A stretch of DNA of 39,954 nucleotides, from the NCBI RefSeq assembly GCF_947503125.1, contig NZ_CANNCR010000041.1, forward strand, positions 1 to 39,954, written 5' to 3'. Positions 10,706 through 29,871 of this stretch are shown here, in pieces; position 1 is the first letter of the stretch, and each line of letters starts with the position of its first letter. The stretch comes from an uncultured Metabacillus sp. Lineage in GTDB: Bacteria > Bacillota > Bacilli > Bacillales > Bacillaceae. Below the pieces are notes generated by a model. It made no database searches, had not been told where the DNA came from, and was given only the letters and a program-made list of their open reading frames with translations. A program made the translations under genes and the position numbers.

Positions 10706-10750
10706 TTATTGTCGGTAGTTAAAAAATAAGATTAGGTGGATTAAATTGAC
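10706..10750 (+). promoter_or_regulatory. Bipartite operator copy A (probable AraC-type target)
   Basis: Contains TTATTGTCGGTAGT, eleven variable bases, then ATTAGGTG and GATTAAATTGAC. The first 14 bases and ATTAGGTG are identical to copy B at 25545. The distance from the G of GTC to the G of GGTG is 24 bases, the same in all four copies. It is 62 bases before the start of the minus-strand GH146-like gene. The rest of this 355-base gap (10751-10999) is AT-rich and shows no gene. Confidence 0.7.
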
Positions 10751-10999
10751 TTTATATTGTAAGCTTCATTGCACTGAAAATTGTTCAATATCCCAACTAT
10801 CTTTCTAGAGGAAGAAGATGATCTATAAGTAAATAAAGGTAGCCAAATGGTAGATAAAACTTGTCTCCTCTGAAAATGTTTAACAAACTTATCAAAGTAT
10901 AAATGAAACATGGATTGTTAGTGAAACGCCTTTTATACGAATAAAAAATCTTTAAAGAGCTTTTTATAGAAATAAAAGGCGGATTTGTTTCTATTTATC

Positions 11000-11896
11000 C
11001 TAGGAAGGACTTTCATTTTGTTTCCAATATTGTTTGCGATAGTTCGCTGGAGATAGGCCATATTTAGTTTTAAAGCATTGTGAGAAATAGCTTAAGCGCG
11101 AAAAGCCGATTTCTTCTGAAATAACGTGTAAGGGCCAATCGGTTTTTAAAAGCAGGAGCCGGCTCTGTTCAATCCTATAAATGGCTAGATATTCTAGCGG
11201 TGTGCAATCAAAAGCCTGCTTCATGCACCGTGCCAAATAGTTTTCATGAACATGAAAATGGGTTGCTAAGCTTTTATTGGTAATGGGTTCTTTATAGTTT
11301 TGTTTTAAATAGATTTCAATCTGCTCGGCCAGCTGAACGGTACTGCTTTGATTGTTTTGATTGTACTCCAGGCTTTGCAGAACCTTCATGAAAATTTGCT
11401 GCGTTTCCCAAAAAGCCAGCGAACGGGCTTTAACCGTTGATTCTAAAAGTAAATTTAACAAATTGTATAGCTCATTTGGGTTAACCAGCTTTTGATATTT
11501 TGGCAAATGAATCGTGTTGTTTTCAGAGTAGTAGTGCAAGGTCGGGACTTGCTGATCTGGATCCAAGGATTTTTGCTCCTTTTGGACACACCATTTGTCC
11601 TTTGTCTGAAAGTGAAACCAGTAAAAAACGGTGTCATTTGCAGATGGTTCAATTGGAAAATGATGTTTATTTGGTTCCAGTATAAGTACTTCTCCAGGTG
11701 ACAACCTCCATTTTTTGTCCTCTTCTCCTAAATATAGATACCCTTCTTTCATAATGATGACATCAAAGTACCTTAAGTTATAACGGTTTGGGTGCCATTG
11801 TCCTTTTTTATAGGTAGTTTGATTCCCCTCAATAAAGTAAGGAAAAGGGGGTACAAGAAACGATAGAAAGGCAGTTTCAGTCATTTCATTCTTCAT
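11000..11896 (-). CDS. AraC family transcriptional regulator
   Basis: A 298-residue AraC/XylS regulator. The N-terminal cupin-like sensor has WRLSPGEVLILEPNKHH and FYWFHF. The C-terminal part (about 195-295) has two helix-turn-helix units: NKSLATHFHVHENYLARCMK, and LHVISEEIGFSRLSYFSQCFK followed by the family ending GLSPANYRKQ. It is complete, unlike the second AraC protein of the island. The ATG sits directly against AAAGG, so an ATG four codons in (MTETAF) may be the true start. It lies between the GH146-like gene (same strand) and the GH127 gene (divergent). It probably senses an arabinose-containing sugar and activates neighbouring genes, and it is one candidate for binding the bipartite operators. 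Confidence 0.9.
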   Translation of the reverse strand: MKNEMTETAFLSFLVPPFPYFIEGNQTTYKKGQWHPNRYNLRYFDVIIMKEGYLYLGEEDKKWRLSPGEVLILEPNKHHFPIEPSANDTVFYWFHFQTKDKWCVQKEQKSLDPDQQVPTLHYYSENNTIHLPKYQKLVNPNELYNLLNLLLESTVKARSLAFWETQQIFMKVLQSLEYNQNNQSSTVQLAEQIEIYLKQNYKEPITNKSLATHFHVHENYLARCMKQAFDCTPLEYLAIYRIEQSRLLLLKTDWPLHVISEEIGFSRLSYFSQCFKTKYGLSPANYRKQYWKQNESPS

Positions 11897-11973
11897 CCTT
11901 TAGTGTGAAATTTTATAAATTTACGTTCAAAATCGATATTTATCCGCTTATATTTTGGTGCTAAAATAGCTGT

Positions 11974-11987
11974 TGTAAACGTTGTTA
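11974..11987 (+). promoter_or_regulatory. cre-like site before GH127
   Basis: TGTAAACGTTGTTA matches 13 of 14 positions of TGWNANCGNTNWCA. It lies about 100 bases before the GH127 start, in the divergent region shared with the araC-type gene, and suggests CcpA-mediated catabolite repression. Confidence 0.6.
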
Positions 11988-12088
11988 AACCAAGGTTAAT
12001 AACAATGATACCGCTTTAATGAATAGAATAAAAGTGGATTTGAAAAATATAAATTTTGATATTTTTTTAGAAAGGGACGAGGCACTTA

Positions 12089-14050
12089 ATGACGATTAAA
12101 TCATCGGTTAATATCACAACTCCAGTCAAGCAAGTAATAGTTGAAGATCGATTTTGGAAAAAATATAAAAGCATTGTTGCTAACGAAGTTATTCCATACC
12201 AATGGAAAGCATTAAATGATGAACTGCCAGATACAGAACCAAGTCATGCAATCGAAAATTTCCGCATAGCAGCCGGCGAGTCCACCGGCGAGTATTATGG
12301 AATGGTTTTTCAAGACAGCGATGTAGCGAAATGGTTAGAAACCGTTGCATATAGTTTACGTGATTTTCCAAACAATGAGTTAGAGAAAAAAGCGGATGAA
12401 GTCATTGCATTATTAGGAAGAGCACAGGCAGAGGATGGATATTTAAATACGTATTATATGCTAAAAGAGCCAAACAATCGCTGGACCAATTTGCGGGACA
12501 ATCATGAATTGTATTGTGCCGGCCATTTTATCGAAGCAGCCGTCGCTTACTATGAAACAACAGGGAAAAAAGAGTTTCTGCACATTATTGAAAAGTATGT
12601 CAATTTAATTGATTCGGTATTTGGGACAGAGGAAGGGAAAATGAAGGGTTATCCCGGCCACGAAGAAATTGAGTTGGCGTTAGTGAAGCTTTATGATGTA
12701 ACAAATAATCAGAAATATATAAAGCTCGCACAATATTTTATTGAACAGCGCGGCCAGGAGCCGATTTATTTTTCAGAGGAAATGGAAAAAAGGAAGACGA
12801 TTGAGAAAGCACCAACTTGGAATGATGAAGAAAATGTCAACTTTGGTTTGGGGTATGAGTATCAACAGGCACATAAGCCAGTGAGACAACAAAAAGAAGC
12901 TGTAGGTCATGCGGTCAGAGCTATGTATCTGTATATAGCAATGGCGGATTTAGCAGCGAAAAATGGTGATGAGTCGTTAAAAAAAACGTGTGAAATTCTT
13001 TGGGATAATGTCATCAAACATAAAATGTATATTACCGCAGGGATTGGATCTGCAGTCAATGGAGAGGCTTTTACATGCAATCATGATCTGCCAAACGATA
13101 GTATGTATTGTGAAACTTGTGCATCAGTCGGTTTAGCTTTCTGGGCAAACCGGATGCTTCGACTGGATCCGAACCGGAAATATGCCGATGTGCTTGAGCG
13201 CGCGATTTATAACGGTACATTAAGCGGCATGGATTTGGACGGCAAGCGATTTTTCTATGTCAATCCTTTAGAGGTAAATCCATTCCAAAAAGTCAGGAAA
13301 GATCAGGAGCACGTAAAGACAGAACGTCAAAAATGGTTTTTCTGTGCTTGCTGTCCGCCGAATTTAGCGCGAATGATTGCTTCTGTTGAGGACAATGTTT
13401 ATACGCAAACAGAAGATGCTTTATATACTCATTTATATATTGCCGGCAAAGCTCAGACCGTTTTGTCTGGTCATCATGTTGAGCTGACACAGGCCCATAA
13501 CTATCCTTGGGAAGGTGATATTGGTGTTACGGTGAAGGTGGAGGAACCGGTACAGTTCAAGCTGGCATTAAGAATACCTGGCTGGTGTCAAACGGCTTCA
13601 GCTAAAGTGAATGGTCAAACGGTATCTGTTAAAGAGTTAGTAAAGGGTTATTTAGTGATAGACCGGGTATGGCAATCAGGTGATACCGTTACGCTTGAAT
13701 TAGACATGCCGATTATGAGGATGCGTAGCAATCCGCTTGTGTCAATGAATCAATGCCAAACGGCCCTGCAGCGCGGTCCGATTGTTTATTGTATTGAAGA
13801 AGTGGATAACGGTTCGAATCTTGCCGCGATTCGTCTTCCTAAGCAAAGCGAGATCATCAGCCAGTATGAACCAGATCTCTTAAATGGAGTTGTCACACTA
13901 ACTGTTGACGGATATCGAGTGGAACCATCAGGTGAGCTTTATAGTCCTCGACAGGAGAAGATGATTCCTCAAAAAATAACCGCTATTCCTTATTATGCTT
14001 GGTGTAATCGTGCAAAAGGGGAAATGCGAGTCTGGATTTATGAAATGTAA
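12089..14050 (+). CDS. GH127 beta-L-arabinofuranosidase (HypBA1-like)
   Basis: A 653-residue cytoplasmic glycosidase of family GH127, close in length to B. longum HypBA1 (658 aa). That enzyme frees L-arabinose from beta-1,2-linked arabinofuranose disaccharides and from Hyp-linked arabinose. Visible landmarks are YGMVFQDSDVAKWLE, the substrate region DNHELYCAGH, the acid/base glutamate E326 (NGEAF), the zinc ligands E342 and C344 (CETC) and the cysteine pair C421-C422 (CACCPPN). The 16-residue distance from acid/base to zinc glutamate equals that of HypBA1 (E322/E338). No signal peptide. Start: ATG with AAAGGGACGAGG upstream. It is transcribed divergently from the AraC-type gene; a cre-like site lies in the promoter region. 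A second GH127 occurs at 33348 and a dead copy near 29.5 kb. Confidence 0.95.
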   Translation: MTIKSSVNITTPVKQVIVEDRFWKKYKSIVANEVIPYQWKALNDELPDTEPSHAIENFRIAAGESTGEYYGMVFQDSDVAKWLETVAYSLRDFPNNELEKKADEVIALLGRAQAEDGYLNTYYMLKEPNNRWTNLRDNHELYCAGHFIEAAVAYYETTGKKEFLHIIEKYVNLIDSVFGTEEGKMKGYPGHEEIELALVKLYDVTNNQKYIKLAQYFIEQRGQEPIYFSEEMEKRKTIEKAPTWNDEENVNFGLGYEYQQAHKPVRQQKEAVGHAVRAMYLYIAMADLAAKNGDESLKKTCEILWDNVIKHKMYITAGIGSAVNGEAFTCNHDLPNDSMYCETCASVGLAFWANRMLRLDPNRKYADVLERAIYNGTLSGMDLDGKRFFYVNPLEVNPFQKVRKDQEHVKTERQKWFFCACCPPNLARMIASVEDNVYTQTEDALYTHLYIAGKAQTVLSGHHVELTQAHNYPWEGDIGVTVKVEEPVQFKLALRIPGWCQTASAKVNGQTVSVKELVKGYLVIDRVWQSGDTVTLELDMPIMRMRSNPLVSMNQCQTALQRGPIVYCIEEVDNGSNLAAIRLPKQSEIISQYEPDLLNGVVTLTVDGYRVEPSGELYSPRQEKMIPQKITAIPYYAWCNRAKGEMRVWIYEM

Positions 14051-14125
14051 ATTTTCTTGAAAGTGGGTGAGGGCTTGGAAGATGTTTAAGGTGACAATTC
14101 CGGGTCCTATAGGAAACTACTGTTA

Positions 14126-14141
14126 GATTAATCGTTTTATC
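14126..14141 (+). promoter_or_regulatory. LacI-type operator O1 upstream of lacI
   Basis: GATTAATCGTTTTATC differs by one base from the near-palindrome O3 (GATTAATCGTTTAATC), exactly 100 bases downstream. The central CG and palindromic arms are typical of LacI-family operators. It is the distal member of a three-site array. Confidence 0.6.
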
Positions 14142-14208
14142 ATAAAAATACAATGGAATTACTTCAGAAGAAGTTATATTTATTTTAATGGCTTAGCATT
14201 TAATAAAA

Positions 14209-14224
14209 GGTTAAACGACTAATA
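14209..14224 (-). promoter_or_regulatory. LacI-type operator O2
   Basis: GGTTAAACGACTAATA reads TATTAGTCGTTTAACC on the minus strand, a weaker form of the TTAATCGTTTAA core. It sits back to back with O3, centres 17 bases apart. Confidence 0.5.
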
Positions 14225-14225
14225 A

Positions 14226-14241
14226 GATTAATCGTTTAATC
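14226..14241 (+). promoter_or_regulatory. LacI-type operator O3 at the lacI start
   Basis: GATTAATCGTTTAATC is a near-perfect palindrome with arms GATTAA/TTAATC. It ends 12 bases before the lacI start codon, so binding would repress lacI itself. Autoregulation by the encoded repressor is the simplest reading. Confidence 0.7.
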
Positions 14242-14253
14242 TAATAAAGAAAG

Positions 14254-15300
14254 GTGAGATTTAAGATAAATATAAAAGATATAGCAGAAAAAGCGAATGT
14301 TTCAACAGCTACAGTATCAAATGTAATAAATCATAGAGGGCGTGTAGGAGAGGAAACACGTAAAAAGATTATTAATATTATTGAAGAATTTAATTATCAA
14401 CCAAATGAGATTGCCAAAAATCTTAAATTAAATAAGACTGATTCAATTGGGGTTATTGTAGAGGATATTTCGGTTTTTAATGCACCTGAGATTATAAAAG
14501 GCATTCATGCAGCAGCGGAAGAAAAAAGGTTATCCATTTTATTAACGAATATGGGTCTTTTCTCAAAAAACGGGAATCAGTTTCCGGATATAAGTAAATG
14601 TAAGGAACTTGCAATGCCATTGTATAGACAATTAGTAAAAAGCCAAGTAGAAGGGATTATTTACATTGGGATTCATCCAAGAGATATTACCGATCTAATA
14701 TCTGATTCAAAAATACCAATTGTATACACTTACTGTTATACCAGAAATAAAAATGACTATTCCGTAAATTATGATGATGAAGGAGGTTCCTATCAATTAA
14801 CAAAATATCTAATAGATAAGGGACACAGCCAAATTGGATTGATTAGTGGATTAATTAATTCGACATCAACATATGCACGCTTACGTGGATACCAAAAGGC
14901 ATTAAGTGAGCATCTGCTGATGTTTAACCCTCAATTTGTCAAAACAGGGGATTGGCAATATGAATCCGGGTACCGAATGACGCAGGATTTGTTAAGTCAA
15001 GAGATCAAACCTACTGCGATAATTGCGATGAATGATTTAATGGCTGCTGGTGCAATTCAAGCAATAAATGACAGTCGCTTTCGAGTGCCGGTTGATATAT
15101 CAGTTTTGGGATTTGATAACAGGGAATTAAGCGGTTATCTTTCTCCGAAATTAACCACTATGTCTTTGCCATTAGAAGAAATGGGGAAAATGGCAATGGA
15201 TATTCTAGATCAAATTAGGAAAAAGCATAACGTCATTCAAAAGAAATATTTATTGGATTGCCAACTAGTTGAAAGAGATTCAGTTTATTCTCATAAATAA
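14254..15300 (+). CDS. LacI family transcriptional regulator
   Basis: A 348-residue LacI-family repressor. The N-terminal helix-turn-helix reads INIKDIAEKANVSTATVSNV, followed by the hinge-like RKKIINIIEEFNYQPNEIAKNL. The periplasmic-binding-type sensor domain carries GVIVEDISVF, GIIYIG and AIIAMNDLMAAGAIQA. The start is odd: only GTG is available, overlapping the AAAGGTGAG ribosome site, while the place where an ATG would be expected reads ATA. Three palindromic sites lie upstream, one 12 bases from the start, pointing to autoregulation. The gene leads the operon of two permeases, the giant glycosidase and the binding protein. It probably responds to an arabino-oligosaccharide or its breakdown product. 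Confidence 0.93.
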   Translation: MRFKINIKDIAEKANVSTATVSNVINHRGRVGEETRKKIINIIEEFNYQPNEIAKNLKLNKTDSIGVIVEDISVFNAPEIIKGIHAAAEEKRLSILLTNMGLFSKNGNQFPDISKCKELAMPLYRQLVKSQVEGIIYIGIHPRDITDLISDSKIPIVYTYCYTRNKNDYSVNYDDEGGSYQLTKYLIDKGHSQIGLISGLINSTSTYARLRGYQKALSEHLLMFNPQFVKTGDWQYESGYRMTQDLLSQEIKPTAIIAMNDLMAAGAIQAINDSRFRVPVDISVLGFDNRELSGYLSPKLTTMSLPLEEMGKMAMDILDQIRKKHNVIQKKYLLDCQLVERDSVYSHK

Positions 15301-15316
15301 AGAGGATATCCCTCTT
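15300..15316 (+). terminator. Weak hairpin after lacI
   Basis: AAGAGG/CCTCTT, a 6 bp stem and 5-base loop, followed by ATTTAAT. It overlaps the lacI stop and is too weak to be a sure terminator; it may allow partial read-through into the transporter genes. Confidence 0.4.
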
Positions 15317-15331
15317 ATTTAATAGTTTATT

Positions 15332-15345
15332 TGTAAGCGGATTCA
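15332..15345 (+). promoter_or_regulatory. cre-like site before the first ABC operon
   Basis: TGTAAGCGGATTCA fits 13 of 14 positions of TGWNANCGNTNWCA and lies 41 bases before the permease ATG. It suggests that the transporter and giant glycosidase are under CcpA control separately from lacI. Confidence 0.6.
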
Positions 15346-15386
15346 TAAAGGGTACCTATTTTATATTTTAAAGGAGGTTAACAAAA

Positions 15387-16346
15387 ATGAAAAATGCACC
15401 TGTTACTAATGCACCAAATAGTTCCAATATAGCAAGATTACATAGAAAAAGATTAAAAGGGAAGTCTTCACTGAAAAATAAATATTTGCCTTATCTATTA
15501 TTAATACCCGTTTTTACTATGATCATAGTTGTCGTTTTTATTCCCTTGTTAACTACAATCATATATAGCTTTCAATCATATCGGTTAACAAACCAAGAAG
15601 AAAAAGCTACTTTTATAGGATTAGAGAATTATATCACTTTATTCCAGGATGAAAGATTTATATCATCTTTAGTTACAAGCTTAATTTATATTGCTGGAAG
15701 TGTCTTGGGGATGTTGATTCTAGCCCTGATTACAGCTCAATTAGCTAACCAGACTTTTAAAGGGAGATCAATTTTTCGTGCAACAATTCTTTTGCCTTGG
15801 GCTGTTGCACCAGTAGTTGCTGCACAATCATGGAAATTTATGTTTGAAACGGACTTTGGAATCATTAATCACATATTAATCTCACTAGGTGCAATTGAGC
15901 GGAATATTCCTTGGCTTGTAACATCTGAGTATGCAATGGGGAGTGTTATTTTAACAAATGTTTGGAAAACTACTCCATTATTGACTTTAATTATTGTCTC
16001 AGGATTACAAACCATTTCTAAAGATTTATATGAGAGTGCTGACATAGATGGTGCCAGTCCTTTAAAAAAGTATTACTATATAACTCTTCCTTTAATAAAG
16101 CCATTTATTTTAATGGGATTAATCTTTACAACACTTCAAACGATAAATGTCATCGATATTATTTATGTTATGACAGGCGGTGGACCTGGGGAAGCGACGG
16201 AAATTTTCACATTATACAATTATAAGGTATTCTTCCAATATCTTGACTTCGGTTTAGGTGGAGCGATGGCTGTTATAGGAGTAACGATCATCGGTATATT
16301 AATTTTCATTTATGGTCGGAACATGAATAAACAAGTAAACAGTTAA
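15387..16346 (+). CDS. ABC sugar transporter permease (MalF/UgpA type)
   Basis: A 319-residue integral membrane permease of a carbohydrate ABC importer. After a basic N-terminus of about 32 residues come about six membrane segments, starting YLPYLLLIPVFTMIIVVVF. The EAA loop is visible as LYESADIDGASPLKKYYYITLP, which docks to the ATPase, followed by the family's MTGGGPGEATEIF. The ATG follows AAAGGAGG. The next gene encodes the partner permease. The operon has a binding protein but no ATPase, as is usual in Bacillus, where a shared MsmX-type ATPase energises several sugar importers. The likely cargo is an arabino-oligosaccharide, by association with GH127 and the GH121-like enzyme. Confidence 0.93.
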   Translation: MKNAPVTNAPNSSNIARLHRKRLKGKSSLKNKYLPYLLLIPVFTMIIVVVFIPLLTTIIYSFQSYRLTNQEEKATFIGLENYITLFQDERFISSLVTSLIYIAGSVLGMLILALITAQLANQTFKGRSIFRATILLPWAVAPVVAAQSWKFMFETDFGIINHILISLGAIERNIPWLVTSEYAMGSVILTNVWKTTPLLTLIIVSGLQTISKDLYESADIDGASPLKKYYYITLPLIKPFILMGLIFTTLQTINVIDIIYVMTGGGPGEATEIFTLYNYKVFFQYLDFGLGGAMAVIGVTIIGILIFIYGRNMNKQVNS

Positions 16347-16390
16347 TAATAGAAATATCTAATCTAGAAAAAGTGTCGGGAGGAAAGGTA

Positions 16391-17209
16391 ATGAAGAATA
16401 GACATGGTCTGTTATTCTGGATAGCTTTAGGCATGATTGTGGTAATAAATGTATTACCGTATTTATGGACCATTTTAACATCATTGAAACAACAGAATGA
16501 AATTTATACTGTGAAAATATTCCCCGAAAAAATCTACTTGGATAATTATATCCAGGTTATAACAGAAAGCGTTTTTTTGACAAATATTATTAATAGTTTA
16601 ATAGTTTCGGGATCAACTGCCTTGATTTGTATAATAATTGGCGTCCCAGCGGCTTACGCATTTGCCCGTTTAAAATTTAAATTTCAAAATTTATTATTTA
16701 TGCTAGTTCTATTCATCACTATTTTTCCTGGAATTTTTATTATCAGTCCATTATTTAGTTTCTTAAAAGAAATAGGTGCGATCGATACATATTTTGCCCT
16801 TATTTTACCTTATGTTGCATATTTCACTCCATTAGTGGTTTGGATATTGACGGGATTCTTTAGAACAATTCCGCATGCTCTTGAAGAAGTAGCGATTATG
16901 GATGGATGTGGGATTTTTAAAGTCATTACACAAATTATTTTACCTCTTTCTTTACCAGGAATATTAACAGTAGGGATCATAGCTTTCACCTTATCATGGA
17001 ATGAATTCTTATTTGCTTTAATTTTTACTTCTTCAGATAACGCGAGGACTGTACCTGTTGCAATATCACAATTTCAAGGTGTCCATTCATTAAATTGGGG
17101 ACAAATGACAGCAGCTGCAATAACCGCCACAATTCCTATCGTTCTCATATCAATTTCTTTACAAAAGTTTATAATCAGCGGTTTAACTGCTGGTGCAGTA
17201 AAAGAATAA
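16391..17209 (+). CDS. ABC sugar transporter permease (MalG/UgpE type)
   Basis: A 272-residue partner permease. I take the ATG at 16391, which follows GGGAGGAAAGG, rather than the in-frame GTG at 16373. There are about six membrane segments. The EAA loop reads ALEEVAIMDGCGIFKVITQI, and the end SGLTAGAVKE is typical of this family. It lies 44 bases after the first permease and forms the channel with it. Downstream are the secreted glycosidase and the solute-binding lipoprotein, so the operon couples outside digestion with uptake. Confidence 0.93.
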   Translation: MKNRHGLLFWIALGMIVVINVLPYLWTILTSLKQQNEIYTVKIFPEKIYLDNYIQVITESVFLTNIINSLIVSGSTALICIIIGVPAAYAFARLKFKFQNLLFMLVLFITIFPGIFIISPLFSFLKEIGAIDTYFALILPYVAYFTPLVVWILTGFFRTIPHALEEVAIMDGCGIFKVITQIILPLSLPGILTVGIIAFTLSWNEFLFALIFTSSDNARTVPVAISQFQGVHSLNWGQMTAAAITATIPIVLISISLQKFIISGLTAGAVKE

Positions 17210-17247
17210 GCAGAATTCTCTTAGGAAAGGAACAGCAATTTAAGGAG

Positions 17248-17310
17248 GTGATTAATAAAAGATACAGCAATTATCTTAATATAAAAATGACAATAAAGGG
17301 AGGAAAGTAG
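17248..17310 (+). CDS. Possible 20-residue leader peptide before the giant glycosidase
   Basis: GTG opens a 20-codon frame (MINKRYSNYLNIKMTIKGGK) whose TAG ends two bases before the TTG start of the next gene. An AAGGAG abuts the GTG, and AGGAAAGG lies further upstream. The glycosidase's own ribosome site lies inside this frame. If translated, it could couple translation to the weak TTG start. It may equally be chance. Confidence 0.25.
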   Translation: MINKRYSNYLNIKMTIKGGK

Positions 17311-17312
17311 GC

Positions 17313-20300
17313 TTGAAAAGATCTAAAAAGAAGGCACTAACAATGGTAACGAGTCTTTTTGTTTTATTTGGATCTATTCCAACTGCATTTGCAGCATATA
17401 ATCCAGGAATACCTGAAGCAGTAGACCCAGGAACCCCTGAATATAACGGGCTTGAAAATCCAGTTCCTGAAGAACCAGTTTTATATGACCCTTCTAAAAA
17501 TATGTTAGGGGAAATTTACAAAGCAGATAAAGATGCAGGTGGTGAAACATACTGGTTCGATCGTATTCTTGAAAGACCTGGCCCAGACGGTGGAAATGAT
17601 TTATTCACACGGGGAAGGGCATTATATATGTTTACACATCAGCCAAGTGCCCTTGGTTTCGGCGGCGGCTATGCATATAGAGAAATGCCGACAGGAAGTG
17701 CTCAAAATATGTATACCATCACATTATCTGACACTTCTCTATCAGAAGTTACTTCTGAAAGAAAACAATACCCAAGTTATTGGTCAAGTTTACACCAAGC
17801 TGAAGGATTAAACATTGAGCAAAAAAAATTCATAACTTATAACAATGTCGCTGTTACGATTTTGAATATTAAAAATACCAGCAATTCAAAGATAACAAAT
17901 ACGCTTATTGTTTCATCTCCAATAGTAAGCACTCCTTCAAAGGATGGAAAAGAATTAACAGGAGTTCAAAAAGCTAGATATGATTTAACTACGATGTATC
18001 CTAGATTAAGTGGAGAAGGGATGACAGTTGACGGTACAAAATTGACTAAGTCTATCACTCTTGAACCAGGCGATTCTACTACTGTAAAAGTTCAAATGGG
18101 GGTAACAACAAAAGAAATACCAGAATCAAAAACCGACTATGAGAGATTTTTAAATTATGATGCAAAAACAGCTTTCTTAACACAACTTGATGAGTACAAT
18201 AAATGGTGGTCTGAGAATGTGCCATATATTGATATTCCTGATCAAAATATTAAGAAGATGTCGTACTATAGAACATTTCTAAATCGATTTAACTACCTAG
18301 ATGCCAATATACCTGGTAATGATTTTCAATTTCCGGTTTCCATTGAAGGTGTTCTAGGATATAACAATGCCATTCAATTAACACAGCCAATGCATATGCA
18401 GGATTTAAAATATTTTAGAAATCCTATTTACTCATATGGTAACTGGGTTTCATCTGGTGAAAGTTCGAAATATTCAGCATTTCAAGATAATCCAGGGGAT
18501 CCTGCTCATTGGAATAATACATATGAGCAATGGATTGCAGATGAAGCGTGGGAGTCTTATAAAGTTCACGGCGGAGATAAAAAAATTCTTAACAACCTTG
18601 CCCGTTATGCGGAAGGAGATGTAAAAGGTCAATTAGACAAATATGATACAAACGGAAATGATCTTGTCCAATATGACTGGGGTTCATTAACCGGGAATGA
18701 TGCAGATGCTGTAGCACTAAATTGGAAAGATAGAGATCAAGACCGGACAGATCAGAGTGCGTTCAACTATTCGGGTGCTTTAGCAGCAGCAGAAATTTAT
18801 ACAATCCTTGGAAACGATCAGAAAGCTCAGGAAATGACTGATTTAGCTGAAAATATTAAAGAATCGATATTAACGATATTGTGGGATGATTCTGAAGGTG
18901 AAAATGGCAAGGTCTTTAAGCAAAGGGATATTGAATCAGGTGAATTAGTGCCTTGGAAAGATCAGCAAAACTTCTCTCCATTCACTCATGAGGTTGTTCC
19001 AAACACAGCTGAATATAAAAAGGCCTTACGATTTTATGCGGATAAGGGACAGTTTCCAATTATGCCATTTTTCACAGCCAACCAATATGATAAGAAGCTG
19101 GCGGAACACGCTGGAAAGGGCGGTAGTAATAACTTTTCAAATATTAACTCAACACTTCAAGCTAGACTATATGCAACAGCTATTAGAAAGTATCCATCTG
19201 AGTACATTACCCCGGATATGTATAGAAAACTGATCGAATGGCTTACATGGACTCAGTATGTTAATGGTGACAACAGATTCCCGGATAACAATGAATTCTG
19301 GAATAGCTATGATGAAGAAACGAAAAAGCTTAACTATCGATCGTGGATTCATCATAATATCCTTGGTGCCTATAACTTTTCACTTATTGAGGATATCGCA
19401 GGAATGCAGCCGCGCGCTGATGATATTTTAGAATTGTGGCCAATTGATATGGGATATGAATACTTTACCGTTAACAACTTAAGATACCATGACAGCGACC
19501 TAACCATTGTTTGGGATAAGCCTGATGGAACAAAGCATTATGGAGAAACTCCTGAAGGATATTCTGTATACATTGACGGTCAACGAGTCATTACGGTTGA
19601 TGATCTAGTACATCTTACTTATGATTCTAAATCTGGAACCGTCACCATCAAAGATGAAAGTAGCAATGCAAAAGTTACGTACAAACAAGCTAAGAGTATG
19701 AAGAAAGCAACTGAGGTAACTCTTTCGGATAATGCTAGAGCAGTAGATATGTTCCAAAAAGCAGGTGTTGATCTTACGCTAGAAACAGGAGATGCAGTAA
19801 ACCTTGCAAAAGGAAAAGCAGTTTCTGCTTCTTATACATCTGTCGGCTCTAGACCTGAAGAACTTACAAAGGTAGAAAATGCAGTTGATGGATTTACGGT
19901 AAGCGGACTTCCGACAACTCGAGGAAACCATTATGCAGCACCAAATCCGATCTGGGGTACAAAAGATTCTCCAAATAAGCAAGATTGGTTTGAAATAGAT
20001 CTTGGTAAGCCAACAGCATTTGATCATGTAAAGCTATATTTCTATAGCGATAAATCTAAAAATAATTACAGAGAACCACTTCATTATACGATTCAGTATT
20101 TGGAAGGAGCTGAATGGAAGAGTGTGCCTCTTCAAAAGAAGAGTCCAATTCAAGCTAATTATAATGAAGTAAAGTTTAATACGATCACTGCCCAAAAGAT
20201 AAGGGTGCTCATGACTCCTTATCCAGGATTTGATATGGGTCTTAAAGAAATTCAGGTATTTGAAACTGGAATGAAAGTGCCGGCAGAACCTAACAAGGCA

Positions 20301-21938: not shown

Positions 21939-21955
21939 CAATGGTTAATTACTCT

Positions 21956-21983
21956 TTCCAAGTAGAAGAAACCCTGCTTGGAA
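21956..21983 (+). terminator. Intercistronic hairpin between glycosidase and binding protein
   Basis: TTCCAAGTAG pairs with CTGCTTGGAA (nine pairs plus a wobble), followed by a short CTTTTG. It may partly terminate transcription or protect the mRNA, giving different levels of the glycosidase and the binding protein. Confidence 0.6.
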
Positions 21984-22065
21984 GGCCCTTTTGTATAATA
22001 AAACTTTAATAAAACTTTGTAAGTTATTATGATTAGGAAATTTATTAGTAGGGGGTTAATTCGAA

Positions 22066-23361
22066 ATGATCAAAACATTAAAGAAGTTTTCCGTATTTAT
22101 GTTATTATTTGCTATGCTACTTGTATCAGCATGTAGTAATGGAGAATCAAGTAGTGGTAGTAACAATGATGTTGCAGGCAACCCAGATTCCGTTACTATT
22201 CGCATGGCTGTATTTGAAAATGATCCAAATGGAATGATGGAAAAAGCTAGACAAAAGTTTAATGAGGAGCACGATAATATTACACTAGAATTTACTCAAA
22301 TGTCCAATGATGCCTCGCAAATGCATGACCAAACGGTAACACAGCTTTCTGCGGGTTCAGAAAATTTAGATATTGTTAATATGGACGTTGTTTGGACAGC
22401 AGAATTTGCTGAATCAGGCTGGTTATTACCTCTTGATGATCGATTTACTGAAGAACTTCAATCAAATTATATTGGACGTCAGGTTGACTCTGTAAAATAT
22501 AATGATAAAACATGGGCAGTTCCTTGGTTCAATGATTTACATCCATTATGGTATCGTGAAGACCTACTCAAAAAATATAATAAAGAAGTACCAGAAACCT
22601 ATGAAGAAGCAGTAGAAGTTGCTCAAGAAATTTCAAAGGAAGAAGGAATCCAAGGGTTCACGATGCACTGGGGACGTTCGGAACAATTAATTGTTAGTTT
22701 TACAGAGTTCCTTCATGCTAACGGTGGAAACTTCTTTGACGAAAACGGCAAAGTCATTATTAATAGTCCTGAGGCAGTAGATGCCCTTCAATTTATGGTT
22801 GACATGATTGAAAAGTATGAAGTAGTATCTCCGTCTGCAATTGGGAGTGCTACTCCAGAGGATTCAAGAATTCCTTTTACACAGGGGCAGTCAATATTTA
22901 ATCCTAACTGGGGTTATGTTTATTCTATTAACCAAGCAGATGACTCAGCGGTTAAGGATAAAACATGGGTAGCAAGTAACTTCATGTTTGAGGGTGGAAA
23001 AAAAGCTAACTCTGTTGGCGGTTGGAATTTTGCCATTTCAAGCAGTTCAAAACATCCCGATGAAGCTTGGGAAGTAATCCAATGGTTTACATCATTTGAA
23101 AATCAAAAAGAAATGATTGTTGGTGGAGGATATGCTGGAACACAACTAGCACTTTATGAGGATGCAGATGTTATTAAAGCAGCTCCATATTTAGAAGAAT
23201 ATACAAAAGCATTTGAAGATGCATCTGTTAGACCAAGTCATCCACAATATTCAAAAATGTCAGATATTGCTCAATCACACATTCACCAAGCATTATCTGG
23301 AGATTTAAGTCCAAAAGAAGCATTAGATAAGTTAGCTCAAGAACTGGAGAAACTCGAATAA
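22066..23361 (+). CDS. ABC transporter sugar-binding lipoprotein
   Basis: A 431-residue extracellular solute-binding protein of the carbohydrate type. A lipoprotein signal ends in the lipobox LVSAC (Cys at about 23), followed by a Ser/Asn/Gly-rich linker. The fold-typical segments are ARQKFNEEHDNITLEF, LDIVNMDVVWTAEFAESGWL and AWEVIQWFTSFENQ. The ATG is preceded by TAGGGGG. It is the last gene of the lacI-permease-glycosidase operon and ends in a good terminator. It should deliver sugars made by the giant glycosidase to the permease pair. The exact ligand cannot be read from sequence. Confidence 0.92.
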   Translation: MIKTLKKFSVFMLLFAMLLVSACSNGESSSGSNNDVAGNPDSVTIRMAVFENDPNGMMEKARQKFNEEHDNITLEFTQMSNDASQMHDQTVTQLSAGSENLDIVNMDVVWTAEFAESGWLLPLDDRFTEELQSNYIGRQVDSVKYNDKTWAVPWFNDLHPLWYREDLLKKYNKEVPETYEEAVEVAQEISKEEGIQGFTMHWGRSEQLIVSFTEFLHANGGNFFDENGKVIINSPEAVDALQFMVDMIEKYEVVSPSAIGSATPEDSRIPFTQGQSIFNPNWGYVYSINQADDSAVKDKTWVASNFMFEGGKKANSVGGWNFAISSSSKHPDEAWEVIQWFTSFENQKEMIVGGGYAGTQLALYEDADVIKAAPYLEEYTKAFEDASVRPSHPQYSKMSDIAQSHIHQALSGDLSPKEALDKLAQELEKLE

Positions 23362-23366
23362 TATGG

Positions 23367-23405
23367 GAAACGGTTGAGGATAATATCCCAACCGTTTTCT
23401 TTTTA
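23367..23405 (+). terminator. Terminator of the first ABC operon
   Basis: GAAACGGTTG pairs with CAACCGTTTTC (one bulged T) around a 12-base loop, followed by TTTTT. It closes the operon a few bases after the binding-protein stop. Confidence 0.85.
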
Positions 23406-23462
23406 GAAAATCCTATAAGGTTTCGATTATCAACTTAAACCTTTGCTCTTCAGATGCATTGT

Positions 23463-25043
23463 TTAGCGTATTTTTATTGAAAATGTTTTTGTTACCGGAA
23501 TGCTTTTTTCATCATAATCTCTTAATTCAACTGTAAAGGTATAGTTCCCTTTTGATTGGTTTTTAGAAACTTTTCCATTGATGGTTCCAGTAAACCTGTT
23601 TAAACTTAATCCTTCAGGAAGAGAGCCTTCTACTATTCTCCAATCATAAAATGGCACACCACCCTTTGCCAATAACGTTTGTGTGTATTTATTTTCTTTT
23701 TTAGCATTATCTAGAGAAGTAGTAACAATTTGAGGCTTAATAAAAGGTGTTAGGTTTCTATTCAGTTTCCATCCGGCATTTTCTGCAACTAATAGAGTGA
23801 GTTTTGTCAACATCCATCTCCTTGTAGGGAAATCATGCTTCCAACCTCCACTTTGACCGCTTATACGATCCCAATATTTTTCGTCACCAGGTATATGGTA
23901 ACTGCTATCAAGTGGAACAGGGTATCCCTGATAATAAACTACATCTGTTTCATTACCGCCTTTCACTTTAAATTCTTGCATACCAGACCAATATTCATGA
24001 AATGCTAGTGAATGCCCAAATTCGTGCATAATTAGTCCATAAACATCTGTTACCTTATATAAATCAGTTAAATACCATTTTTCATCATCTAGTGATGTAA
24101 ATGGAATGGCTCCATCAATAAACTCTAAAATTAAACCTAGAGATCTATGGATTTGTCCCGGAATCATTTCACCGTTTCTTGTATGGTAATTTCCATTATT
24201 AGCCGGATACCCTGTAGACCATGGATCATTCAGTCCTCTCATAGCGATCCACATACCGTTATAAGGTACATTGTTTGTTACTTCTACATGATTTTCCCAA
24301 TTATCACCCGGAATCATAATACTTTCAGAGTTTGCGGGAACCTCATCAAAGGGTTCCATATCAAAAAAGTAAAACCAGTCTTTAACAGCCTGTTCTGAAG
24401 CATTTCTGATTCCTTCATCCTTAAAGTATCCTGTAATTGTGTCAGACCGATAATCAAAATGCAGAGGGAAATTTGTTTCTTTATTATCATCCTGATCCCA
24501 AACTCTAATAGGTATGTTTTGAGTATGTCCGTTGCCAATTTTGTCCGAAGTTTTAAAAGTTAATTTATATTTTTCAACTTCATTCGGACCACCAATACGG
24601 TCAGGATGAATCGCTAATTTAAAATCCTTTTTCTCTTCAGCGTTGGAAAATGTTAAAATTTTTGTCGCCCCATCTTTAGACAACTCGCTTGGCAAATCCA
24701 TCATTAAACGAGAGGTTCCTGTTGCTTTAATTGTTATGGTTACAGGAAACACTGCATCTTTTGGCGGTTTAACTGTAAGTTTTACATAAGGGTTTGCGAT
24801 ATATCCCTGCCAGTCTACCAGTTCAACACCATAGTCGTTGATGTTTCTTTCGAAAATATCATAGATCTGAGTATTTGAAAGTTCACTTGAATTTGGTTTA
24901 GTTACTGTTTTTTTAGAAGCTACATTGCTATTTGACTGATCTAGTAAAACATTATTCGATGTTTCCGCAAAACTTTGATGAACAGAAAGCACTAAAGATA
25001 CAATCATTGAAAGAATTAAAACTATAGATAATTTTTTTTTCAT
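23463..25043 (-). CDS. Secreted zinc metalloprotease with C-terminal Ig-like domain
   Basis: A 526-residue exported protein. I use the ATG at 25043, six bases after GGAGG, rather than the one at 25055. The signal peptide ends near SVHQSFAET. Residues about 60-180 are beta-rich, possibly Calx-like. The central protease part has HEFGHSLAFHEYW: H340, E341 and H344 form an HExxH zinc motif, and H349 or E350 may supply the third ligand. The spacing differs by one from the metzincin HExxHxxGxxH. The C-terminal 90 residues, with LPEGLSLNRFTGTING, are a putative He_PIG Ig-like domain. It faces the ABC operon tail to tail. It could open up plant cell-wall glycoproteins for the island's glycosidases; that role is inferred from context. 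Confidence 0.8.
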   Translation of the reverse strand: MKKKLSIVLILSMIVSLVLSVHQSFAETSNNVLLDQSNSNVASKKTVTKPNSSELSNTQIYDIFERNINDYGVELVDWQGYIANPYVKLTVKPPKDAVFPVTITIKATGTSRLMMDLPSELSKDGATKILTFSNAEEKKDFKLAIHPDRIGGPNEVEKYKLTFKTSDKIGNGHTQNIPIRVWDQDDNKETNFPLHFDYRSDTITGYFKDEGIRNASEQAVKDWFYFFDMEPFDEVPANSESIMIPGDNWENHVEVTNNVPYNGMWIAMRGLNDPWSTGYPANNGNYHTRNGEMIPGQIHRSLGLILEFIDGAIPFTSLDDEKWYLTDLYKVTDVYGLIMHEFGHSLAFHEYWSGMQEFKVKGGNETDVVYYQGYPVPLDSSYHIPGDEKYWDRISGQSGGWKHDFPTRRWMLTKLTLLVAENAGWKLNRNLTPFIKPQIVTTSLDNAKKENKYTQTLLAKGGVPFYDWRIVEGSLPEGLSLNRFTGTINGKVSKNQSKGNYTFTVELRDYDEKSIPVTKTFSIKIR

Positions 25044-25111
25044 TTTTACCTCCATTCTGAAATTACTACATTTTCCAAATATGTCTGTGTGATTGGCTAA
25101 ATTGAATGTTT

Positions 25112-25291
25112 TTAGCTCACGCTATGGCCATACATCAGCGATCTACGCAGCGAATTCATGACAATGGTATAAAACTGAGGCATCAAGGGTTTATTTGGCA
25201 TGCCTTCCTTTTTTATGTCCTTGATATACTGAAGTAAAACCATTGGCTTGATAGTTAAATTTGGGCAACTTCTGTCTAATTTTCTATAAAA
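25112..25291 (-). pseudogene. Unassigned open fragment, possible gene remnant
   Basis: Within the 600-base gap between protease and AraC genes, the minus strand holds about 58 sense codons without a stop, including PNLTIKPMVLLQYIKDIKK and FYTIVMNSLRRSLMYG, ending TAA. It has no start codon with a ribosome site and is broken upstream. It reads like protein but I do not recognise the family. It may be debris of a mobile or lost gene. Confidence 0.3.
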
Positions 25292-25544
25292 CTCTACATT
25301 GGAAAGAGAGTTTTATAAAACTTTTGAAACTACCCCAACTTTCATGATTTGATTTTTAATCAAAGTTACAATATTATGAATACGCTTTCGATTGTTAATG
25401 AATTTATACCACCTCCTTTAAAGTATGATAGCTGTGTCTTCAGCTTTTGTGGTAAAATAGTATTAGAGTTTTACACCTTATAGTTAACGGTAGCGGAATA
25501 TTCAGAATAATTCGACTGATTAAAATGATAGCATTTGGAACCTA

Positions 25545-25589
25545 TTATTGTCGGTAGTACAACATTTACATTAGGTGTATAAAACCGAC
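25545..25589 (+). promoter_or_regulatory. Bipartite operator copy B (probable AraC-type target)
   Basis: TTATTGTCGGTAGT, eleven bases, ATTAGGTG, then TATAAAACCGAC. It ends about 60 bases before the second AraC-type gene and may also act on the divergent protease gene. GTC-to-GGTG distance is 24. This is the best-conserved copy and also carries a partial inversion, GTCGG...CCGAC, at its ends. Confidence 0.75.
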
Positions 25590-25650: not shown

Positions 25651-26487
25651 ATGTTGAGTCAATTCCTAAAAACTGATGTAAATACACCTATCGAATTTAT
25701 TTCATGTGGACAATTTTTATCAAGGGAACCTTGGACACACACAAAACGAAACCTAAAAAGTTTTGTAGTAATTATTGGCGTGAAAGACACTCTATACATT
25801 TCTCAAGATGGCACGCAGTATGAAATTAATCCAGGGGATATCTTACTTTTGTTAAGATCACATACCCACCATGGTCATATGGTGTGTCAACCTGGGGTGT
25901 CATTTTATTGGTGTCATTTTAATTGCAATAACCACTTTACATTAATTGACGATAAGACTATGGAAGAAAAGGTAATATCATTTCGTTCTAATCCTGCTTA
26001 TGATCGATCTAACGCGCATATTTTTATACCAATCTATTCAAAACCTCAAAGAATTGAGCGAATTAATATACTATTTAATCAATTAATAGATGTGTCTAAT
26101 GCAAACTACTATAACAAAAGAAGTCTTGACTATATAATCACAACTTTGTTAATTGAAATATCAGAACAAGCTCTTACCAGTTTCCAAACAACAAAAGAGA
26201 AAACAAAAGCTGACAAAAATCTAGTGAAGATCGTTGAATGGCTCCGTATACATTCAACGGATAATATCTCAGTTACTTCGATAGCAGAACAGTTCAATTA
26301 CAATAAAGATTATTTATCACGTATTTTCAAGCAAAAAATCGGAATAAATATCCAAGAATATATTCATATTCTCAAAGTATCTAAAGCAAAAGATCTATTA
26401 TCTTCTACCAACCTTGGCATTAAAGAGATTGCTTATACCATTGGAATTTCTGATGAAAAATATTTTATGAAGCTCTCATTTAAATAA
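25651..26487 (+). CDS. AraC family transcriptional regulator, C-terminus shortened
   Basis: A 278-residue AraC-type regulator. The sensor half has YEINPGDILLLLRSHTHH and FYWCHFNC, similar in layout to the other AraC protein of the island. The DNA-binding half (about 190-278) has VTSIAEQFNYNKDYLSRIFK and IKEIAYTIGISDEKYFMKL, then ends SFK. Family members normally continue about 12-20 residues (GxxPxxYR...), and that end is missing here. The second recognition helix is kept, so the protein may still bind DNA, or the gene may be decaying. Copy B of the bipartite operator stands just upstream, suggesting self-control. It is divergent from the secreted protease. Confidence 0.85.
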   Translation: MLSQFLKTDVNTPIEFISCGQFLSREPWTHTKRNLKSFVVIIGVKDTLYISQDGTQYEINPGDILLLLRSHTHHGHMVCQPGVSFYWCHFNCNNHFTLIDDKTMEEKVISFRSNPAYDRSNAHIFIPIYSKPQRIERINILFNQLIDVSNANYYNKRSLDYIITTLLIEISEQALTSFQTTKEKTKADKNLVKIVEWLRIHSTDNISVTSIAEQFNYNKDYLSRIFKQKIGINIQEYIHILKVSKAKDLLSSTNLGIKEIAYTIGISDEKYFMKLSFK

Positions 26488-26500
26488 AGAATAAAAAATA

Positions 26501-26887: not shown

Positions 26888-27230
26888 AAGGTAAGAATAA
26901 TCCACCTTTTATTAATTTTAGGCTACTGACAATCAATTCTTGATGATGCTACAATTTGATGGAAATGGATTCATAAGAGTTGAATAAACCACCGTTATTT
27001 GCATTAAATGACCTAAATGTTGAAAGCTTATATACAATTGGACTAGGTTTAAAACAACTAAAGGTGGTTATTCTTTAGGTTGGCATTTAATGTTCTTCTG
27101 TTGAAATAGAAGTACAAGCAATCTTCTTATTGGTCCAAAAATATTATCTTACTGGTAAAAGAATAGTAGTTGAATGTTATAAATGAAAACAAGTTAGTAA
27201 AAAAACACAACTAATTTGGGAGTGGAATTA
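26888..27230 (+). other. Gap with gene debris before the M24 peptidase
   Basis: Short frames such as NKPPLFALNDLNVESLYTIG near 26,980 read like protein but are broken by stops and shifts. No complete gene is visible. The last part holds the promoter region and ribosome site (GGGAGTGG) of the following peptidase gene. Confidence 0.35.
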
Positions 27231-28295
27231 ATGAGTAAAATAAAGAAACTTAGAAGCACGTTTGAAGATTTAGAAATTGACGGAATTATTATTGCTAGCC
27301 CAACGAATCGAAGATATATGACTGGATTTACTGGAACTGCGGGTGTTGTAATTATCTCAAGGGAGGAAGCAGTATTTGTTACTGATTTTCGGTATGTAGA
27401 GCAAGCTGCCTGCCAAGCAAAAGGGTACAATATTGTACAGTATAAAGAAGATTTAATAGCAGAAATAGCAAAACAGGTTGTAAGTCTAGGAATTACCAAA
27501 CTGGGATTTGAGGAAGAACATCTCTCGTATAAAGAATTCCGAAAATACACTGAAGCGATTAATGTCTCTTTTGTACCTACTTCTGGGGTAGTTGAAAAGC
27601 TTCGTGAAATCAAAACGGAAGAAGAAATTTCCGCTATTAAAAGTGCAGCAGCAATAGGAGATATTGCTTTTACACATATATTAAACTTTATTAAACCTGG
27701 TATAACAGAAAAAAAAGTTGCTAATGAATTAGAGTTTGTCATGAGAAGAGCAGGGGCTACATCCTCTGCTTATGATATCATAGTGGCTTCAGGATATCGT
27801 TCAGCCCTACCACATGGCATCGCATCAGATAAGGTCATTGAAAAAGGTGATATGGTTACCCTTGATTTTGGTGCATATTATAATGGATATCGTTCAGATT
27901 TAACGCGAACTGTAGCTGTTGGAAAGCCGAATGGAAAATTAAAAGAAATCTATCAAGTTGTTTTGCAAGCACTTAATAAAGGTGTCACTGGAATACGGGC
28001 AGGACTTACGACAAATGAAGTAGACGCTCTACCACGCAGCTACATTCAAGAAAAAGGTTATGGAGATTATTTTGGACACGGTGCAGGTCATGGAATAGGA
28101 CTAGATATTCATGAAAATCCATTTTTTAGCACACGAGGAAAACCTCAAAAAATAGAAGCAGGAATGGTTGTAACTATAGAGCCTGGCATTTACATTCCCG
28201 ATCTTGGTGGTGTAAGAATTGAAGATGATTTACTTGTTACTGAAAGTGGAAATGAAGTACTTACTCAATCAATAAGAGAGTTAACTATAATATAG
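27231..28295 (+). CDS. M24 family Xaa-Pro peptidase (aminopeptidase P type)
   Basis: A 354-residue cytoplasmic metallopeptidase. I choose the ATG at 27231 over the TTG at 27216 because GGGAGTGG lies between them. The N-terminal creatinase-like domain starts at IKKLRSTFEDLEIDGIIIA. The C-terminal 'pita-bread' domain has all five metal ligands: D212 (LDFG), D223 (RSDLTRT), H287 (GHGIGLDIHE), E317 (TIEPG) and E331 (RIEDD). Such enzymes cut X-Pro bonds, and some accept hydroxyproline. It stands alone between the AraC-type gene and a decayed stretch. A second, diverged M24 gene is at 35697. Two proline-specific peptidases in an arabinosidase island fit the use of Hyp-rich glycopeptides. Confidence 0.93.
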   Translation: MSKIKKLRSTFEDLEIDGIIIASPTNRRYMTGFTGTAGVVIISREEAVFVTDFRYVEQAACQAKGYNIVQYKEDLIAEIAKQVVSLGITKLGFEEEHLSYKEFRKYTEAINVSFVPTSGVVEKLREIKTEEEISAIKSAAAIGDIAFTHILNFIKPGITEKKVANELEFVMRRAGATSSAYDIIVASGYRSALPHGIASDKVIEKGDMVTLDFGAYYNGYRSDLTRTVAVGKPNGKLKEIYQVVLQALNKGVTGIRAGLTTNEVDALPRSYIQEKGYGDYFGHGAGHGIGLDIHENPFFSTRGKPQKIEAGMVVTIEPGIYIPDLGGVRIEDDLLVTESGNEVLTQSIRELTII

Positions 28296-28468: not shown

Positions 28469-28523
28469 GCTCCCCTTAAGGTAGACAGATTAAAAATAAA
28501 AATCTGTTTACCCTAAGGGGAGC
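28469..28523. repeat. Near-perfect 23 bp inverted repeat
   Basis: The arms 28469-28491 and 28501-28523 pair at 21 of 23 positions around a 9-base AT loop. The outer ends are GCTCCCCTTA and TAAGGGGAGC, the inner ends CAGATT/AATCTG. It has no T-run and lies about 170 bases after the peptidase gene. It could be a strong mRNA hairpin or the fused ends of a lost insertion sequence. Confidence 0.7.
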
Positions 28524-29161: not shown

Positions 29162-29205
29162 GTCGGATTTATACACCTAATGTAATAGTTGGACCACTGA
29201 CAAAA
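29162..29205 (-). promoter_or_regulatory. Bipartite operator copy C (probable AraC-type target)
   Basis: On the minus strand: TTTTGTCAGTGGTCCAAC, then ATTACATTAGGTGTATAAAT and CCGACT. It matches copy B over most of its length, including the 13 bases ACATTAGGTGTAT, and keeps the 24-base GTC-to-GGTG distance. It stands upstream of the dead GH127 copy. Confidence 0.72.
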
Positions 29206-29269
29206 TTTAGGGACAAATGATATTATTTTAGTGGATAACACAATTCTAAAAATTAAGATTATTATGAAT

Positions 29270-29283
29270 GGTAAGCGATTTCA
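29270..29283 (+). promoter_or_regulatory. cre-like site before the GH127 pseudogene
   Basis: GGTAAGCGATTTCA matches 13 of 14 positions of TGWNANCGNTNWCA. Together with operator copy C it looks like the control region of the former GH127 transcription unit. Confidence 0.5.
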
Positions 29284-29473
29284 AGAGAGAGTTCATATAG
29301 GTGAAATTATTATTATTTTATTTGATAGTTAGTGGTTTCTACTAATCATTTTTATTAATCAATTTAAAATGAGCTTATTCTTTCATTCAAATATTGGCTG
29401 GATGAAAATAAATGGAAGATACTGAAATTAGTAAGTCAGTAAATATTAAATTAACAGATCATTTAAAAACAAC

Positions 29474-29804
29474 AAAAAGGGCTACCTTATTACTTTTTTT
29501 ACTGTAAAAGAACCTGGAGGGAAAGTTGAGCAATCTTCCTAATCGCCATGAAATGTAATGTGTGGGTCATATGATTGAAACCGCTTTCTCCTATTATCAG
29601 GGTACTGGAAAACAAAACTTCTAGATATTATGTGCTAATCATATAGATTCTGTCTTCAGTAAAGCAACTGTGTATGAAGTTCATCAAGAAATAGAATTAG
29701 CAGTAGTAAGACTTTATAGAATGACAGGAAATAAACGTTACTTAAGACTTAATATATTTTTTATTAATAATCGAGGTCAAAAAAGATCAAATTGTTTTCT
29801 TTAA
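29474..29804 (+). pseudogene. Degraded GH127 fragment
   Basis: The reading KKGYLITFFTVKEPGG corresponds to the DGYLNTYYMLKEPN stretch of the intact GH127. After a one-base shift it continues SNLPNRHEM, stop, CVGHMIETAFSYYQGTGKQNF, stop, then ANHIDSVF and HQEIELAVVRLYRMTGNKRY, ending FFINNRGQK. These align in order with NLRDNHELYCAGHFIEAAVAY, IDSVFG, HEEIELALVKLYDVT and FIEQRGQEP of the enzyme at 12089. There are two stops and one frameshift; both ends of the gene are missing. Only about 110 codons, N-terminal to the active-site residues, remain. It is closer in places to the copy at 33348 (LYRVTGEKRYLKL). Confidence 0.88.
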
Positions 29805-29830
29805 ATAATCTATTATTTTTAGAAAAGTAA

Positions 29831-29871
29831 GATTTATACACCATTTGTCATTCTCCCTCTACGGACTATAA
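29831..29871 (-). promoter_or_regulatory. Bipartite operator copy D (probable AraC-type target)
   Basis: On the minus strand: TTATAGTCCGTAGA, eleven bases, then AAATGGTGTATAAATC. It is the most diverged copy but keeps TTATxGTCxGTAG, GGTGTATAAA and the exact 24-base distance. It ends 120 bases before the second binding-protein gene. Confidence 0.62.

Follow-up and report, generated by a model that had tools for sequence, protein, structure and literature searches.

Five copies of a conserved 40-bp element in a 39,954-nucleotide stretch of Metabacillus DNA (the window, that is, the whole stretch analysed) very probably represent class II activator sites of AraC2, an AraC-family regulator encoded in the window, and its orthologous group, at activator-dependent promoters serving the use of beta-L-arabinofuranosides. 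The sites, their geometry, the promoter boxes and the co-occurrence with AraC2 are features of the compared sequences themselves. A first-pass annotation of the window had proposed that its scattered gene units form one regulon, and the shared element, which within this genome is specific to the window, supports a putative regulon of this kind.

Five copies of one element in the window

The first-pass annotation described four copies of a bipartite operator (sites A to D), and the places, strands and distance of exactly 24 bases from GTC to GGTG that it gave were confirmed on the sequence for all four. Searching the 5,441,460-base genome with the fixed-spacing pattern GTCNGTNG-N16-GGTGKATWAA returned 4 exact matches, all on the window's contig and within the window, and none for the reversed pattern, compared with chance expectations from base composition of ~0.007 matches per genome and 0.00005 per window; the motif is not scattered genome-wide. 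The number of copies nevertheless rises from four to five, as a mismatch-tolerant scan recovered site E (26897-26930, minus strand as originally written), one mismatch away from the annotated pattern. The description of sites A and B as sharing their halves while the eleven bases between differ proved loose, as 5 of the 11 spacer bases match.

The direction in which the element had been written was reversed, with -35 and -10 boxes at a fixed spacing found only on the other strand. There, each site reads GTM-N9-CACC-N16-CYACNGAC, beginning with GTC in A, B and C and with GTA in D and E; the GTCNGTNG half is the reverse complement of CNACNGAC, which continues into the -35 box. This box (CCGACA, CTGACA or CGGACT) is made up of the motif's last five bases and the next base, and is separated from the -10 box by 17 bp (A) or 18 bp (B, E, C and D), so that each of them has the appearance of a promoter preceded by an operator (Table 1). 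The poorer -35 box of site D (CGGACT) counts against the activator-site reading. In the original orientation, no -10-like peak appears among 56 distinct araC2-adjacent sites (highest value, 6 of 56).

Table 1. Sites, promoters and genes in the window, with sites given in promoter orientation.
Feature	Position	Strand	Remarks
Site A operator	10711-10750	-	GTC...CACC-N16-CTACCGAC; upstream of GH146-like gene
Site A core promoter	10687-10715	-	-35 CCGACA 10710-10715; -10 TATACT 10687-10692
Site B operator	25550-25589	-	Between AraC2 and minus-strand gene
Site B core promoter	25525-25554	-	-35 CCGACA 25549-25554; -10 TATCAT 25525-25530
Site E operator	26891-26930	+	Fifth copy, absent from first-pass annotation; 40 bp
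Site E core promoter	26926-26955	+	-35 CTGACA 26926-26931; -10 TACAAT 26950-26955
Site C operator	29162-29201	+	
Site C core promoter	29197-29226	+	-35 CTGACA 29197-29202; -10 TATTAT 29221-29226
Site D operator	29827-29866	+	
Site D core promoter	29862-29891	+	-35 CGGACT 29862-29867; -10 TAATAT 29886-29891
AraC2, AraC-family regulator	25651-26487	+	Proposed cognate protein; without last ~20 residues of aligned orthologues
GH146-like gene	8365-10644	-	Pfam GH127 catalytic domain; predicted target of A
530-aa protein	23463-25055	-	He_PIG domain; HEFGH and signal-like N terminus by eye; next downstream of B
Weak remnant	26992-27155	+	Like 276-aa ORF of L045/L064 (E 4e-4); between E and M24 gene
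M24 peptidase	27216-28295	+	Xaa-Pro peptidase type, below NCBIfam cut-offs; next intact gene after E
Broken GH127 remnant	29468-29783	+	Behind C
Probable operon	29992-35249	+	Behind D; solute-binding protein, two ABC permeases, GH127; operon suggested by spacing

Conservation of the element

Among 60 genomes searched, including that of the window (G000), the exact pattern occurs in two, the other being Bacillus sp. SA1-12 (G011), in which five sites (two exact, three with one mismatch) keep the same order. Allowing up to 3 mismatches to the longer pattern gave 5 (all in the window), 5, 2 and 2 matches in G000, G011, G003 and G008, respectively. The reversed control gave 2, 3, 2 and 3, no fewer than the true pattern in G003 and G008, and only matches with at most 2 mismatches were taken as sites in G003 and G008; the G003 site has 2 mismatches. 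The G011 locus, otherwise collinear with the window, has no counterpart of a 12.5-kb segment (10957-23448) that holds AraC1, GH127, LacI, two permeases, a 1541-aa protein and a binding protein. The G011 counterpart of 37026-39649 is a single 1595-aa ORF, and the window has ORFs of 102 and 770 aa there that match its first 90 residues and residue 811 onward, which fits an internal deletion.

We also collected loci with AraC2 relatives, keeping 79 from the best 80 of 118 stretches of the genome collection; these relatives come from Bacillaceae, Paenibacillus, Cohnella and some Clostridia. The loci were scanned with a matrix built solely from the window's five sites, with the reversed matrix as a control. 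The first-pass annotation had suggested a search of related islands, and the motif recurs in them: at a threshold of at least 18 bits, there were 62 sites in 53 of the 79 loci and none with the reversed matrix, whereas thresholds of at least 15 and at least 11 bits gave 72 sites in 60 loci (reversed, 2 in 2) and 90 hits in 68 loci (reversed, 20). One of the loci (L043) is the G011 locus itself and is therefore not independent of the window's nearest relative.

A site of at least 11 bits lies no more than 450 bp upstream of the AraC match in 57 of the 79 loci, facing away from it at a distance of 7-160 nt. Given this position just ahead of most araC2 orthologues, AraC2 may affect its own expression. 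The adjacent site is missing in 22 loci, including L046, which has no site and stops at a contig edge, L074, whose site has a 15-base instead of a 16-base spacer, and L047, L058, L060, L061, L063, L073 and L090, which carry a non-adjacent site elsewhere in the locus (just 15.3 bits in L090). The remaining 13 (L100, L108-L110 and L112-L120) have AraC relatives that are 31-37% identical. No hit of at least 11 bits was found anywhere in 11 of the 79 loci, namely L046, L074 and nine with clostridial relatives at 31-35%.

A putative operator half merged with the -35 box

The 67 sites scoring at least 18 bits (62 plus the window's five) collapse to 59 distinct 40-mers, with window site A represented by its identical G011 copy. 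The downstream flank, which carries the -10 box, and the A that completes GACA are outside the matrix columns. A TA...T box lies 18 or 19 nt past GAC in all 59 distinct sites (30 and 29, respectively), and at any other offset from -1 to 39 it never appears in more than 6 of them; across 1,000 rounds of shuffled flanks, the mean was 3.9 sites and the maximum 11. When sites sharing 60% or more of their spacer and flank sequence were thinned out, 46 remained, every one of which has the box. A looser count over the 59 sites, requiring at least 4 of the 6 bases of TATAAT, gave 29 each at offsets 18 and 19, 15 at offset 16 and 14 at offset 21; the secondary rises at 16 and 21 count against the activator-site reading. 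The A completing GACA is present in 52 of 59.

Conservation within the element is concentrated in GTC (columns 0-2), CACC (12-15) followed by TAWTNT, and CTACNGACA (32-40). These columns include a direct repeat of AC (13-14 and 34-35) at exactly 21 bp, or two helical turns. Of the 59 sites, 56 carry both copies of AC and 33 both copies of ACC; the matrix by which the sites were selected contains these columns. An AraC-type dimer makes four helix-turn-helix contacts ~10.5 bp apart, and three of the four expected contact places would be conserved here, the third (columns 22-31) being little conserved, a point against this reading. The earlier notion of a bipartite operator with an AraC layout thus stands in so far as this is a regulatory element with half-sites 21 bp apart; the whole is a promoter-operator unit, one half of which includes the -35 box. 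A conserved 'half' spotted by eye can turn out to be a promoter element.

Binding, activation and the type of ligand are inferred. An AraC-type dimer would bind the two direct half-sites, 21 bp apart, that contain the AC repeats. The downstream half would merge with an imperfect -35 box (CNGACA or like), which is the class II position, with the -10 box 17-18 bp further. Bound to its ligand, probably an arabinose-type sugar, the protein would recruit RNA polymerase at the five promoters. No CcpA operator was found inside any of the sites; the window has three strict matches elsewhere (0.73 expected), and three or more arose in 2 of 100 shuffles. A degenerate cre-like stretch follows the -10 box of site A, as judged by eye only.

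AraC2 as the putative regulator

On the sequence evidence, only the second AraC protein, AraC2, is indicated as the putative regulator. A site of at least 15 bits is present somewhere in the locus in 32 of 33 cases at AraC identities of at least 44%, in 19 of 23 at 38-43%, in 5 of 7 at 36-37% and in 4 of 16 below 36%. Several of the low-identity loci (L108, L109, L110, L112 and L117) have a divergent GH127-type gene yet no site, so that the motif follows the regulator and not the enzyme gene. The same association was seen with a strict core written from the consensus of AraC2-linked sites, which misses three of the window's own five. This core occurs in 8 of 397 genomes drawn from the order (G000 and seven others; control, 0), and all seven others encode an AraC2 relative at E <= 1e-50. 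Such a relative was found in 1 of 25 hand-picked, non-random genomes without the core, and that genome holds a looser site of 25.8 bits.

The G011 orthologue of AraC2 has the C-terminal double helix-turn-helix domain (HTH_18 over positions 2-79 of 80, with two HTH_AraC stretches), whereas in window AraC2, HTH_18 reaches position 64 of 80 with one HTH_AraC stretch. AraC_binding, the N-terminal sugar-binding cupin, is matched at E 1.1e-8 in the G011 orthologue and at 1.3e-4 in window AraC2. Alignment with three orthologues places the end of window AraC2 ~20 residues early, inside the second helix-turn-helix, and the regulon may therefore be inactive in this genome, which counts against the activator-site reading here. 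The C-terminal loss looks like a short deletion at 26440-26490, although an assembly error may lie behind it. No other close AraC2 copy was seen in the same genome among the matches listed, and intact copies are present in relatives.

Alternative explanations

It is quite unlikely that AraC1 (11000-11896), or both AraC proteins, is the cognate regulator. AraC1 belongs to the AraC family, neighbours site A and has a GH127 gene as its divergent partner, and window AraC2 is truncated; however, the segment containing AraC1 is missing from the G011 locus, in which all five sites are still there, and the best AraC1 matches in G011, G003 and G008, all of which have sites, are 44, 42 and 24% identical. 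In addition, between AraC1 and its divergent GH127 gene there is no match within 4 mismatches of the first-pass pattern. If AraC2 is the regulator, it might instead act as a repressor that sits over the -35 box and blocks transcription until the sugar is present, as a downstream half overlapping the -35 box would, taken alone, also suit repression. AraC-type activators, however, have an upstream half at a fixed 21 bp and an imperfect -35 box, which is the layout seen here, and we consider repression unlikely. Repeats at 21 bp have also been reported for the rhamnose regulators of the AraC family in Bacillales (PMC3870299).

The presence of several copies within 19 kb, on both strands and in some cases beside dead genes, would fit an origin from a mobile repeat, with ends or remnants transferred between gene units, but this idea is scarcely credible: the halves and their spacing hold while the bases between the halves diverge, the -10-like box keeps its distance in every distinct site, the element recurs in many genera and no transposase was found among the 23 window ORFs scanned with Pfam. 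A structured RNA leader with GTCGGT...ACCGAC arms, in place of a protein site, is extremely improbable too. The outer arms are complementary in some sites (GTCGGT/ACCGAC in B), but columns 3 and 36 show no covariation (22 of 59 sites have A-T or G-C there, and 27 of 59 combine A with C), Rfam gives no match at the sites, and an element upstream of the -10 box would be outside the transcript of its own promoter. Taking the GTC...GAC arms as an inverted repeat or a hairpin was rejected on the same lack of covariation, the window's Rfam match lying away from the sites.

Relation to known systems

At araI1-araI2 (pBAD), E. coli AraC occupies a direct repeat of half-sites at 21-bp spacing whose downstream member touches the -35 box, and class II overlap with the -35 box is textbook for AraC. 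The AraC2 group resembles it as an AraC_binding protein with two helix-turn-helix motifs, a likeness of layout, but its predicted targets differ, being beta-L-arabinofuranosidase-type enzymes and an ABC importer. The G011 orthologue is not an equivalog of AraC, scoring 93.2 bits with NCBIfam model PRK10572.1 against a cut-off of 208. The 21-bp AraC repeats and the -35 overlap are already known.

The AraC-family RhaR of Bacillales is described as having direct-repeat motifs with a 21-bp periodicity, called unique (PMC3870299). Our system is similar in family and in that described periodicity, whereas its predicted targets, unlike the rhamnose genes of RhaR, are mostly GH127, GH146-like and solute-binding protein genes. 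In Bifidobacterium, comparative genomics assigned beta-arabinooligosaccharide regulons to BauR1 and BauR2, presumed repressors of the LacI family (PMC5928203). Those regulons, like ours, were predicted by comparative genomics and combine beta-L-arabinofuranosidase genes with a transporter, but the regulator here is of the AraC family. For a GH127 locus of Roseburia, the regulator listed is of the TetR type (PMC5320581). No description of the motif or regulon was recognised in our search, which covered literature other than subscription journals and RegPrecise. Our results provide a predicted operator and regulator for the GH127/GH146-type beta-L-arabinofuranosidase genes of Bacillales, comparable genes being linked elsewhere to LacI (Bifidobacterium, PMC5928203) and TetR (Roseburia GH127 locus, PMC5320581) regulators. 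The motif would allow regulon members to be called by sequence and defines promoters that can be put to the test, each with a single predicted start point.

Predicted target genes and state of the putative regulon

Of the genes before which the first-pass annotation had placed the sites, those at A (GH146-like gene), C (broken GH127) and D (binding-protein operon) are indeed faced by the promoters. Site B, by contrast, faces away from the AraC gene, onto the minus strand towards 23463-25055, and E is directed at the M24 peptidase gene, with a weak remnant in between. At four of the promoters the next gene downstream is intact: A would drive a GH146-like enzyme, B a HEXXH protein that is probably secreted, E an Xaa-Pro type peptidase and D an ABC importer together with GH127. 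C fronts the broken GH127, and this dead target counts against the activator-site reading. For the GH127 protein encoded at 33348-35249, a match among solved structures is the GH127 beta-L-arabinofuranosidase 4qjy (E 3e-219), and an orthologue of the GH146-like gene stands behind a like site in G011 and in Neobacillus niacini. Site B is ~470 nt from the next gene, which also counts against that reading; the stretch in between (25056-25524) is collinear with G011, and no match to a gene was found there in a comparison with ORFs of at least 150 aa from L043-L121, L007, L008 and the window. The HEFGH protein had no match among solved structures.

A divergent ORF, defined as the longest minus-strand ORF of at least 80 aa ending at most 900 bp upstream of the AraC match, with start codons set mechanically, was present in 75 of the 79 loci; as these were picked by length and position alone, some are not genes. 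The commonest divergent partner is a GH127 beta-L-arabinofuranosidase (52 of 75), the closest window protein being the GH127 of 12089-14050 in 46 cases and that of 33348-35249 in 6. Others were closest to the binding protein (4), the GH146-like protein (1) or the 530-aa protein (1), and 17 match no window protein, suggesting that specificity may vary within the AraC2 group. Where a site is not next to araC2, the gene behind it is most similar, among those of the window, to the GH146-like gene (L043, L044, L053, L059 and L063), the binding-protein gene (L043, L047, L058, L060 and L061) or the M24 gene (L043); the genes behind such sites in L052 and L073 have no window match. In G003, L047, L058, L060 and L061, the binding-protein gene behind a site is some kb from araC2, and the ligand may thus differ within the family.

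Window-type M24 peptidases occur in 4 of the 79 loci, all with an AraC identity of at least 77%; together with the HEFGH protein, they tentatively suggest that this clade uses hydroxyproline-arabinose glycoproteins. The truncated AraC2, the broken GH127 behind C and the remnant behind E indicate that the regulon may be decaying in this strain. A fuller account, to which we give roughly even chances, is that of a previously undescribed AraC regulon for beta-L-arabinofuranosides in Bacillaceae, Paenibacillus and Cohnella, whose promoters keep almost the same geometry throughout, with the second half-site fused to the -35 box and conservation at three of the four expected contact places. In this genome and in the four loci whose AraC2 relatives are closest, the regulon is accompanied by Xaa-Pro type peptidases, as would suit a pathway that consumes plant hydroxyproline-arabinose glycoproteins, and in the present genome the promoters would remain while the activator decays.

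Some further features of the window were noted. A remnant of the C-terminal ~80 residues of a ~610-aa protein, whose frame is open in L008 and L044, lies at 35312-35556. At 6267-6331 there is an Rfam match to Bacillaceae-1 RNA, barely over threshold (35.3 versus 35 bits), and four adjacent YheC/D-type ATP-grasp genes occupy 647-5756 on the minus strand.
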